Source: Moniliophthora roreri
Taxonomy: Eukaryota; Basidiomycota; Agaricomycetes; Agaricales; Marasmiaceae
DNA length: 64,000 nt
Assembly: GCA_001466705.2 (NCBI GenBank)
Contig: LATX02000207.1
Coordinates: forward strand, 1 to 64,000
Direction of reading: 5' to 3'
The notes under the pieces are model-generated. The model was not told the origin of the DNA. It saw nothing but the letters and a program-made list of their open reading frames with translations, and did no database searches. The translations under genes were made by a program, and so were the position numbers. Position 1 is the stretch's first letter, and every line of letters starts with the position of its first letter. Of the stretch, positions 13,096 to 29,793 are shown piece after piece.

Positions 13096-13103
13096 ACTAG
13101 TAC
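13096..13103. repeat. Left 8-bp target-site duplication (ACTAGTAC)
   Basis: It directly precedes the left terminus and is identical to 29786-29793. Confidence 0.85.
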
Positions 13104-13256
13104 TAGTGTTGCACAGGCACAGGCCCGGCCCAAATACCGTGGCTCGGGCCCGGCTCCAGAGGGCTCAGGCCCATCCAAATTGTGAGCCGGGCCTTGGGCC
13201 GTAAAGGAGGGCTGGCTCAGGCCCGGCTCAGGCTTGGGCCACGGCTCATGAGTACC
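13104..13256. repeat. Left terminal inverted repeat and subterminal GC-rich motifs
   Basis: The terminus TAGTGTTGCAC is followed by many copies of GGCCCGGCTC or GGCTCAGGCCC-like motifs on both strands up to about 13,250. Arrays of this kind serve as transposase-binding sites in hAT elements. The stretch is much richer in G+C than its surroundings. Confidence 0.85.
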
Positions 13257-14860
13257 GCAAGTAAAATAGGTTGGATAGGTTGACTGCACATTAATACCAC
13301 CTATATCTATACCCATGAAAGACATGAGGCTCGATACGACGTCCATATTGCATCATTGAGTGCAGGTTATTTGGGTGCTAAGCATCAGCCTAGTGTACTC
13401 TGCTTGGAAGAGGTTCAAGAGAGTGAAAGATGGTGGTAGGAATAGAGGTATTATGAAGTAAAGCTCCTGGGGCCCAAAGAGACGATGGGGTCACTAAACG
13501 TAATGGTTCATCACGTCTGTGACTGGATGAACGTCCACGAACCATCACCAAACAACGTCTCAGCCGAGTCGAGCCGCTGTCTGACATCTGGGGACTGGTC
13601 AGGAGCCTTGAGCCCGAGTCCGGCGAAGGGATGGGAGAGGAAACAGGAGAGTCCAGCCAAAAAAAAACAGGGGGCTGTGATGGTCAGAGAGGAGATAGGA
13701 AACCGATTCTGGGAGAGAAAAGATGCAGTTGTGAGCAGTCATTTTGGGATCGATGACGCATCCCCGAGTCCATTTGGAGTCCGTTCGCATCACCACATTG
13801 TCAAAGTACTTGGTGGCGACACCAGCATGAGCACGGGAGGCTCAAAAATATAAGAATAAATTATTTTTGAATTATCTGAGAATGTAGAGTAGCACAGTCC
13901 CGTGCAAAGACAAGCGGAAGCGAAAAAGAAAAAGAGGGAGAGAAAATTCAAGTCACTGATGTGCCATGCAGTAACAATGAAAGGCATCGTGTGTCCCCGA
14001 GAACTAAGGTCTACTCGGCCTGAACTCAAGACTCACCTGCTTTTACTGGAATGCAAAAATTGAGGGTCAAGAAAGGTTTGCAAGGGGATTGGGGACATTC
14101 TCGAGCTGAGATGGTAGTGAGAGAAGAAGAACGAACACACCTTGAACATGAGATTTACTGCAGGCCCGTATACCTTGTACATACAGGAACAGGCATATGG
14201 GAAATGAGCCGCGAGCTGTGGAACATGAGGCAAATGGCTGCTTGCATGTTCTCGTCACTTGTTGTGCTGCCGTATTATATCTCATCGTCTTTTGGTGTGT
14301 ATCTCATCGTCTATTTCTTATCGGGGTCGTCTATTGACCACTTCTGCCCAGCAAAAAAAAAGCATGAAGTTCTTCCAGCCCAGGAAAAAGATGGCCCTGA
14401 GTAGGGGCCTCTGTATTGTTTTCCGGCTCATTCCGTCCTCTTTCCCTCACGTTCTCTTCCTCCACCCTCAACCAATGTTGGCTTTGCAGCATCAGCTTCT
14501 CAATGCAACCAACACATGTCATCACCAGCGCTCTATGGTAGGAATCCATTTATTCAATGGATCTGTACATTGACATGTTCCCCAATGCCTCTTTCCACAG
14601 ATAGAACTCATTCCAGAGCATTCCAAAGTGGCTAAATCAGCATCATGTTCTCAACCAAAGGTCTCAATGGATGAATCTAGAGCATGCCACATGTATTGAT
14701 AGGAGAATCGGTGTTGCTGAGGTGTCAAATCATGTGTGACTCCTGGTGAGTCCTCCTTTCTTTTCCTTCTCCTAAATTTGCTCATTCAGGTCATACAGGC
14801 TCAGAGGCCCTGATATAAAGACCACATAGTAGTACCAATCCCGACAGTGCAACATATCTC
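13257..14860. other. Left internal region of the large element, no gene recognised
   Basis: Several short open frames exist on both strands (for example 13,485-13,853 plus), but none shows a transposase motif or a credible splice pattern. The last 100 bp include AGGCCCTGATATAAAGACC, a possible TATA-type promoter for the recombinase gene starting at 14,861. Confidence 0.4.
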
Positions 14861-16690
14861 ATGCCTCCTATGACCTACGACTCATCTACCAGCCTTATTC
14901 TCAACCGGTTCAAAGGCCTTCGGGATGCACTCACAGAGTGTGAGCACCGCGCTCATGCAAGTGCCCTTGTCAAGAAAGAACTCGAAGAACTTCACCTTGG
15001 GGAACCTATCCTTGATGACGACGACATCCTGGACCTTCTTGACGGCAATGACTCTGATACTGAATCTGTGTTCAGAGATGAGTCAGAGTCAGACGGAGAA
15101 GATGGGACTGAGGACGCCATGATGGTTGATGTGGGGCCAATCTCAAGCACCATTACAACAGTGAACAGTGTCGTTGAGGAGACAAAGACAGCCAGTCTGC
15201 CTGCAGCGTATCAGAAGACTGTCAAGGAGCTCATGCAGAACATTTCTGCTGATACTCAAAGCAGCTACAAAAGGTATGCTTTACCCTATGCTTTAGCCCA
15301 CTGCTTGTACTGATCATGTTTCTTTATCACAGCATTGTCAAGAAGGCCAAAAAATATTTTGAGGATGAAGGCCTTATACCTGCAGGCGAGGACTTTTTCT
15401 GTGAGCAGCCACGTTCTGATGCTCCAACTCTCGCTATTCTTGCGATTATGAAGATGTATGTGCTCATTCATCATACTACTACTTGAGCCTGATAACAGCC
15501 TGTAGATGTGACACAGTTAATCCTGATAGCTCCATAAAGCCTTCGCATGAGATCTGAGCTGGCTTCTCACATGCTGAGAAGGTTCAAGCAGCCTTCCGTA
15601 ACGCTTTCGAGCAGAAGGGCTTGACCGAACCTTGGCATGAGAGTGAGGTAACAGGCAAGATGTTGGGAAATTCGATGATCTCTCCAACAATATCCAAGTA
15701 TATGAAGAGCCTGAAGCAGCGGAAGGTTCAAGCTGGTGAAACACTGACAAGTTCTCGAGCTATAACTGAAGTAATGTCTATTCCTTTATGGGATTCCTCA
15801 GCCTAACTTATTCGATCAGGAGGATATTTTCCAACTTTTCAATGTGAGTCGCAAGCCAGAGAACAAGATCAAGTCTGCCACCTGTATTCCCTGGGATCGC
15901 TCCCAACCTCGACCACTTGGTGGACGTTTATGCCGTCTGCTTCTATTCATATACACCATTTCATTCCTATGTCTGTTGCGTATTGATGAAGCCCTCCGCT
16001 AGGTCCGTCTGCTGTAGTTCCACCTTTTTCTAAGTTTCCCGTCTACCGAATACGAGTTGCGACTCCCTTTTCGTAAAACTCATCAATACGGTGGTACATC
16101 TTTGCTCCTACTGTAGATTGTTGGCTTATCATTCTGCTGCAGATATCAAACCATTTTATCTTCATGAATTCCCAGATCACCTCAAACACCTATGTCCAAT
16201 TGCCACATATTTTGAGTGGATCTCCGAGGGTCTATAGAGTCTACCAAAGCACACAGCATTACAGTTAGTCTTACTGTAACAAAGACCGGATGAGAACGTG
16301 GCCATGGTCAGTATATTCAACTCTTTATTTATGCTTTTGCCAGCTTACTTTAATACTCAGACCTCGCAGACTTTCCTTGCCCACTTCCGCAACAACATTG
16401 AAGAGATCGGTCTGGATTCAACTGCGTATGGTGGTCATTCCTTCCACCGTGGAGGCTGCCAATGGTTGTCAGTAGAGTGGCAATGGCCACTCCGCAAGAT
16501 CTGCGAATGGGGAGCAACCTCGGTTCTTAACTACTTGAACTGATAACAGTTCATAGATTACTCTTGGAACGACAACCCTATGTTTCCATGGAAGAACTTT
16601 TTCCTCATGGATGAGCAAGTGACTATTGCGTGTGGTGCATGTGGTCGCAGTTGCTTGTGCTATGGCTCAGCGACTGTCAGTGCTAATATA
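14861..16690 (+). pseudogene. Crypton-like fungal tyrosine recombinase, decayed
   Basis: Exon 1 (14861-15271) encodes an acidic N-terminus ending in TQSSYKR. After a 60-nt intron comes KKYFEDEGLIPAGEDFF, and a third exon then meets an in-frame stop. Further pieces keep the family order: WHESEVTGKMLGNS and KQRKVQAGETLTSSRAIT (about 15,630-15,770), YTISFLCLLRIDEALR (about 15,950-16,000, holding the box I arginine), ELRLPFRKTHQYGG (about 16,050), then YGGHSFHRGGCQWLSVEWQW and PLRKICEWG (about 16,425-16,515), and a cysteine-rich end CGACGRSCLC. Several stops and shifts separate them. The box II motif expected as H-x-x-R reads H-S-F-H, so a catalytic arginine is lost. The family is recalled from many Agaricomycete genomes; the enzyme would cut and rejoin DNA. 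Confidence 0.75.
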
Positions 16691-28889: not shown

Positions 28890-29560
28890 CAGGGGGGAGG
28901 TGGGCCATGGTTCCGGAACACTGGGACAGTTGGTTGGTTGCCCAATGGCCAGCTTAAAAAAAATTTTAAGCCAATTTTTTTTCAAATTTTGAACACTTTC
29001 TCAGTAACCAAAGGTTCTTTTATGACCACCTTCATAGCAGAAAGACTCAAATTTGCTCCTATATGCCTTTTGGATGCTGGTCCAGATCAGTTTCCTGCCC
29101 ACCCATGGTCCTTGGGGCTCACTCACAGGTATTTTAAGGGTTTGTGGTGGTTTGGCTGTATAGGACTGGGAGTTCTCCATAATAGGGTTACATTATATGC
29201 CTTCTTGAACCAACTTACACTCTGGATAAACATACTATCCTTAGATCTTAGCAGATATCAATCCCTAGAGATCTGCAGTTGCTTGCTTGGGCTCCTGTAC
29301 CTAGAATATAATGTAGATGAACCTTACAAACAGTTTGAAACATTCTACTGCAGACTTCGGTATATTGTGCTCGCACTTCGCTGAACCTGGCTAATGCGAA
29401 GAAGAGGACCAGCGCTAGTCAGGTGCTTGCTACTTAGCGCCGGTGATGTCATGTGAACTACCTTCCATATATGGTAGTCAGTGGTTGGTTGGTTCACCGC
29501 GACGGTCCTTAAAAAAAAATTCGACCCCATGTACAAAAAAAAAAATTTCCCTCCCCCCTG
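28890..29560. mobile_element. Small non-autonomous hAT-like element (671 bp)
   Basis: CAGGGGGGAGG at 28890-28900 is the exact inverse of 29550-29560. The flanking octamers are AGTCAGTG (28882-28889) and AGTCAGCG (29561-29568), seven of eight identical, as expected for a hAT target duplication. The terminus CAGGG is typical for hAT. Inside are poly-A/T tracts and a degenerate inner inverted repeat (GGTTGGTTG with its complement CAACCAACC-type on the other side is not perfect). No transposase frame is seen; a plus-strand open frame at 28,875-29,384 has no recognisable motif. Confidence 0.7.
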
Positions 29561-29654
29561 AGTCAGCGTCAAGGCAGCGCCACGGATCTGTCAATGGCAG
29601 CAAATCTTTTATTCGTGAGAATTTTGGCTTCACCTATGATCTCCCAAAGCCACG

Positions 29655-29785
29655 GCCCACGAAAGTTAGAGCCGGGCCTTGAGCCCTACTCAAGCCCTAC
29701 AGAGGGCCCGGCTCAGCTCAGGCTCAAAGTACTAGTGCTGGCTCAGGCCGGCCCACGGCTCTGGGCCTGAGCCCGTGCAACACTA
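29655..29785. repeat. Right subterminal GC-rich motifs and terminal inverted repeat
   Basis: It mirrors 13,104-13,256: repeated GAGCCGGGCC/GGCCCGGCTC motifs ending in GTGCAACACTA at the very terminus. Confidence 0.85.
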
Positions 29786-29793
29786 ACTAGTAC
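29786..29793. repeat. Right 8-bp target-site duplication (ACTAGTAC)
   Basis: It directly follows the right terminus and is identical to 13096-13103. Confidence 0.85.

Follow-up and report, generated by a model that had tools for sequence, protein, structure and literature searches.

The cacao pathogen Moniliophthora roreri carries, on contig LATX02000207.1 (assembly GCA_001466705.2), a complex of nested mobile sequences that we analysed within a window comprising positions 1 to 64,000 of the forward strand (64,000 nucleotides). Between positions 13,096 and 29,793 of this window, hAT-type terminal inverted repeats (TIRs) enclose a tyrosine recombinase (YR) gene, an XPG/GEN1-like nuclease gene and a SAP-motif gene, which together form what we call the YR-XPG-SAP element (Table 1). 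A sequence-only reading of the region had described the 11-bp inverted ends, the exact 8-bp duplication and the GC-rich subterminal arrays, all of which are present as stated, and the three gene types that it had recognised were likewise confirmed as YR-like exons, an XPG-like gene in two pieces and a SAP-motif gene. Additional to that description are a Ty3/gypsy retrotransposon, a second small hAT-like element of 671 bp and the stops in the YR and XPG genes.

Table 1. Features of the nested unit in the window (window coordinates; a dot marks features given without strand).
Feature	Position	Strand	Remarks
Target duplication ACTAGTAC of outer MITE, left copy	13096..13103	.	
MITE left arm, through GAAGT at 13455-13459	13104..13459	+	97% to L045, 90-91% to L046/L047
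YR-XPG-SAP element, 15,417 bp (~8.1 kb without gypsy)	13455..28871	+	Borders from C124/C129/C116; uninterrupted MITE copies without element
GAAGT core, left end of YR element	13455..13459	+	
Left subterminal pair GTCAC (13490-13494), GTGAC (13519-13523)	13490..13523	+	
Conserved left subterminal block	13549..13575	+	5 occurrences in genome, control pattern 0
Tyrosine recombinase gene, several exons, in-frame stops	~14861..16606	+	Catalytic residues in homologues
XPG/GEN1-like nuclease gene, 5' part	~17367..17655	+	
CTTTC, gypsy left target duplication	17651..17655	.	
Ty3/gypsy LTR retrotransposon: gag, protease, reverse transcriptase, RNase H, integrase with chromodomain	17656..24971	+	
CTTTC, gypsy right target duplication	24972..24976	.	
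XPG/GEN1-like nuclease gene, 3' part, with stops	~24977..26251	+	
SAP-motif gene	~26767..28415	-	Conserved C-terminal region without Pfam match
Right subterminal GTGAC, -31 from right end	28841..28845	+	
GAAGT core, right end of YR element	28867..28871	+	
MITE right arm, first part, ending in duplication AGTCAGTG (28882-28889)	28872..28889	+	
Second small hAT-like element, 671 bp, ends CAGGGGGGAGG / CCTCCCCCCTG	28890..29560	.	Absent from MITE copies
MITE right arm, remainder, beginning AGTCAGCG and ending in inverted end	29561..29785	+	94% to L045
Target duplication ACTAGTAC, right copy	29786..29793	.	

A protein search with the YR returned 115 homologues, the named ones of which are often annotated as 'DNA breaking-rejoining enzyme' and come from mushroom-forming genera. 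Protein hits at 98-100% identity belong to M. roreri itself. The homologues keep the catalytic R-K-HxxR-(H/W)-Y residues and the YR fold, the window copy itself being degraded, and 16 of 35 aligned homologues match the Pfam Phage_integrase model up to E 0.1. The predicted structure of one intact homologue, P0009 from Agaricus bisporus (mean predicted local distance difference test score, pLDDT, 80.3; predicted template modelling score, pTM, 0.62), matches Cre over both domains, with low confidence in the tyrosine region (393-410), and the YR homologues model as Cre-like. The nuclease has the XPG I region that marks the XPG/FEN1/GEN1 family (XPG_I, PF00867; 2e-14) and matches GEN1/RAD2/FEN1 chains at best at 5.3e-14, while the SAP-motif gene matches Pfam SAP (PF02037) at 4.3e-7.

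The outer shell has the hAT-type inverted ends and 8-bp duplication of a miniature inverted-repeat transposable element (MITE). The TAGTGTTGCAC ends (13104-13114 on the plus strand and 29775-29785 on the minus strand) are its sole exact matches in the window, where allowing one mismatch yields 4 matches versus 1.05 expected, and ACTAGTAC flanks them as an exact target duplication. The 20 outermost bases of the left end recur with up to 3 mismatches at 33 places in the genome, versus 4 for a control pattern, many of them in head-to-tail facing pairs about 500-600 bp apart, and the left arm (13104-13454) matches 20 genomic places when used as query. All the copies that we fetched (L045, L046, L047, L048 and L049) are short elements without the three genes, two of which (L048 and L049) resemble each other and have a smaller inner part in common; the GC-rich subterminal arrays of the window are common to MITE copies elsewhere in the genome. 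Since L045 aligns to both window arms (13106-13459 and 29561-29785) with only about 10 bases between them, the outer unit is, on this alignment, a non-autonomous hAT-like MITE of about 590 bp.

Comparison with these copies locates the insertion of the YR-XPG-SAP element precisely. At position 13455 the window reads TATTATGAAGT and then AAAGCTCC, where L045 and L047 read TATTATGAAGTTCCTTGA and L046 reads TATTATAAAGTTCCTTGA (the stretch across this point is absent from L048 and L049). MITE sequence picks up again in the window after the second GAAGT (TCCTTGATGAAGTCA), and therefore all the intervening DNA was inserted, with a GAAGT at either end. The same ends are defined by copies with unrelated flanks on contigs C124 (left), C129 and C116 (right), in which homology with the window starts with the GAAGT at 13455 and stops with the GAAGT ending at 28871, and not at the hAT ends. 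Judged from these alignments, the three genes are not MITE cargo and belong to a separate element that inserted at GAAGT inside the MITE.

Two further insertions complete the nest. The gypsy element splits the XPG nuclease gene, and the YR element of C124 runs from the equivalent of window position 17655 directly on to 24970 with the gypsy element absent; the gypsy insertion is later than the YR element and broke the nuclease gene. Its two long terminal repeats (LTRs; 17656-18040 and 24587-24971), of 385 bp each, carry 6 differences, all transitions, and a 101-bp tandem array (18799-19303) lies in and after its gag region. The 671-bp element in the right MITE arm has 11-bp inverted ends and an 8-bp duplication that matches at 7 of 8 positions. 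Transitions also make up most of the differences among L045-L049, as they do all six in the LTR pair, a pattern that would be in keeping with C-to-T decay of repeats, and changes in the HxxR motif of genomic YR copies are of the same type. Other YR elements are disturbed in their own ways: a repeat family with ends TAATTTGTCTAAG and CCATATTA interrupts or truncates several (L039:8050, L040:3177-4882, L042:3266-3718, L043:1276-2261), the C67 element is interrupted by 5.9 kb of inserted DNA made of repeated 358-bp and 1.6-kb units (L050+L052:8653-14556), which is absent from C129b, and C124 has an exact 1,777-bp tandem duplication spanning the 3' end of the YR gene and the 5' part of the XPG gene (L039:4403-7957).

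The three genes recur together through the 59.4-Mb M. roreri genome, which we searched with the window's YR, SAP-gene and XPG pieces and with the PF00867 model. The matches (96, 42, 66 and 37, respectively) merged into 33 YR, 48 XPG and 25 SAP-gene clusters, counts that are slightly inflated because the probable duplicate contigs C15/C73, C21/C105 and C120/C153 were kept in. An XPG match lies within 10 kb of 27 of the 33 YR clusters (random mean 0.54, maximum 4 in 2000) and a SAP-gene match within 10 kb of 16 of them. Of the 25 SAP-gene clusters, 21 have XPG. In the window itself, the gypsy insertion puts the SAP gene beyond the 10-kb limit. In each of five bounded copies that we mapped, the YR is the first gene and points inward, and an XPG gene is present in either orientation; a SAP gene was detected in the window element and in C67, C129b, C84 and C99. 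The question raised by the sequence-only reading, whether the three genes are neighbours elsewhere, is answered positively, and its refuting condition, that they never are, did not come true.

These copies also have ends in common. Six copies with both ends found carry a core of GAAGT, GAAGC or TAAGT at each end, and inside the left end GTCAC begins at +35 from the core, followed by GTGAC at +43, +53 or +64; random 100-bp stretches of the window contain both left motifs in 0.8% of cases. GAAGT stands on both sides in subfamily two (C67 and C129b), subfamily three (C84 and C99) has GAAGT on the left and GAAGC on the right, and in subfamily four C34 has TAAGT on the left and GAAGT on the right, the latter being also the right core of C75. 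A genome scan for the left-end architecture returned 7 distinct places, every one adjoining YR genes. Because one copy can have unlike repeats at its ends, comparison of the cores suggests that the core derives partly from the target and partly from the element. Together with the linkage in 27 of 33 YR clusters, common ends across four subfamilies bear out the proposal, offered by the sequence-only reading as one of two, that recombinase, nuclease and SAP protein form a mobile-element module.

The nested arrangement, the recurrence of the gene module and its common ends can be read directly from the sequences, and the unit is very probably a nest in which a MITE was entered at GAAGT by a YR DNA transposon (13455-28871) and later by the gypsy element, the movement of the YR element being deduced from its anatomy. 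This transposon consists of a GAAGT left end with the GTCAC/GTGAC pair, a leader of 1.2-2 kb, the inward YR gene, the GEN1/XPG-like nuclease gene, the opposite-strand SAP gene and a GAAGT right end. The YR would bind the fixed-distance GTCAC motifs, excise the element as a circle and use strand exchange to integrate this circle at a GAAG-type site. Less certainly, the GEN1-like nuclease may trim or resolve branched intermediates arising from strand exchange or element replication, and the SAP protein may bind DNA and help to assemble or aim the complex.

Several observations weigh against this interpretation. An empty site was found for the window copy only. In the window YR, the HxxR motif has H in place of R and the tyrosine region is gone, the C67 YR likewise deviates in HxxR, and stops occur in the window copy and several others; with stops in both its YR and XPG genes the window copy looks dead. 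Both partners lie within 10 kb of just 15 of the 33 YR clusters, genome search and copy mapping detected no SAP gene in the C34 copy, and the predicted structure of a SAP-gene protein failed (pLDDT 31). Nor are the ends uniform, as the core varies (TAAGT at the C34 left end, GAAGC at the C84 and C99 right ends), the right-end GTGAC stands at -31 or -32 in just 4 of 9 right ends, no core is found at the homology breakpoint of the C68/C116 pair, and C110/C144 homology breaks at an unrelated repeat.

The other proposal of the sequence-only reading, under which the three genes are cargo taken up and carried by a pair of hAT ends, accords with the matched TIRs and the exact 8-bp duplication around the entire block, but it is already refuted by the uninterrupted MITE copies L045-L049, which exist without the block and, where they cover the insertion point, are contiguous there. 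Moreover, the module borders in C124, C129 and C116 show GAAGT instead of TAGTGTTGCAC (up to one mismatch), the lone one-mismatch match (L041:8293) being internal to the module, and no transposase gene was seen inside. That the genes lie outside such ends in relatives had been named beforehand as refuting, and they do; we regard cargo transport as extremely unlikely. A composite, in which the MITE took in the YR element at some other site before a hAT transposase moved both here as one unit, would resemble MarCry-1_FO of PMC3212892, where a Crypton sits within a Mariner cut-and-paste element or is fused to it. The 8-bp duplication is indeed still exact and the genome has hAT transposase domains (at least 19 PF05699 matches, none on C106 among the matches listed), but this scenario takes one step more than insertion into a resident MITE and no second composite copy appears among the 20 places matched by the left arm, making it improbable.

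The activity of the YR being a prediction, the 5-bp repeats flanking the copies could also be ordinary target duplications of another transposase that mobilises the module with the YR as passenger. Target duplications should vary, whereas the repeat is nearly constant across copies with ends found; a single copy may carry two unlike repeats (C84, C99, C34), as expected for partial core exchange, and those Pfam searches that included reading frames of the element found no other transposase, which renders this explanation very unlikely. The often broken and rearranged state of the copies would suit a host gene cluster spread by segmental duplication without transposition, but we give this negligible probability in view of the defined ends, the precise insertion in the MITE and the near-identical copies at unlinked places with unrelated flanks.

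The YR transposons known from fungi are mainly of two sorts, small Cryptons with a single gene and giant Starships laden with cargo. A mid-sized multi-copy element with a recombinase, a GEN1-like nuclease, a SAP protein and defined ends and core would provide mushroom-forming fungi with their own kind of YR element. It would explain a large unplaced gene family (the 115 homologues) and make testable why a transposon carries an enzyme of the Holliday-junction-cutting family. No YR-XPG-SAP element is named in the open-access literature searched, a scope that leaves out subscription papers, preprint servers and Repbase. We lean, by a little, towards the view that mushroom-forming fungi host a separate superfamily of eukaryotic YR DNA transposons. 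Its members would integrate at GAAG-type sites and, as a self-contained recombination kit, encode a GEN1-like junction nuclease and a SAP-motif DNA-binding protein of their own, and the superfamily would account for many of the genes that carry the annotation 'DNA breaking-rejoining enzyme' or 'PIN domain-like' in these genomes. The hypothetical tyrosine recombinase between psiK and psiH in the psilocybin cluster of Psilocybe gandalfiana, reported in PMC11812301, might belong to the same YR family.

Among known systems, the outer shell alone resembles hAT elements and MITEs, with TIRs, an 8-bp duplication and short non-autonomous copies, whereas the three genes came with a later insertion and not by descent. 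DIRS and Ngaro elements are YR retrotransposons; the use of a YR is common to both, but no reverse transcriptase of its own was seen in the YR element, with 0 matches in 8 frames of the C84 copy and that of the window being gypsy's. Cryptons, according to PMC3212892, have a YR gene, no TIRs, terminal direct repeats of 4-6 bp and a proposed circular intermediate, and some oomycete Cryptons encode an accessory enzyme, a C48 peptidase. Our family likewise has a YR gene, no TIRs and short terminal direct repeats (imperfect in C84, C99 and C34) but differs in that 35 homologous recombinases gave no Pfam match to GCR1_C, the CryptonF DNA-binding domain (up to E 0.1), or to DUF3504, and it adds the XPG/GEN1-like nuclease, the SAP-motif protein and the fixed-distance GTCAC inside the ends. 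Starships are described in PMC12134995 as elements of 15 kb to about 700 kb with cargo, short direct repeats and an inward DUF3435 captain YR nearest the left end, with insertion into other transposons reported for some captains, and PMC13066641 reports Starships in the basidiomycete Tremella fuciformis. The likeness extends to the YR as first, inward gene inside one end (5/5 mapped copies), the short direct repeats and the insertion in another transposon, but bounded copies span about 8-16 kb and hold two partner genes, and DUF3435 (PF11917) was matched neither in the 35 homologues (up to E 0.1) nor in two queries from the genome (up to E 1). With a predicted way of working like that of Cryptons or small Starships but no match to the marker domains of either, the element is placed as a variant among YR DNA transposons, and it is best read as a tyrosine-recombinase DNA transposon that would work as Cryptons and Starships do, without their marker domains and with a GEN1-like nuclease and a SAP protein in addition.

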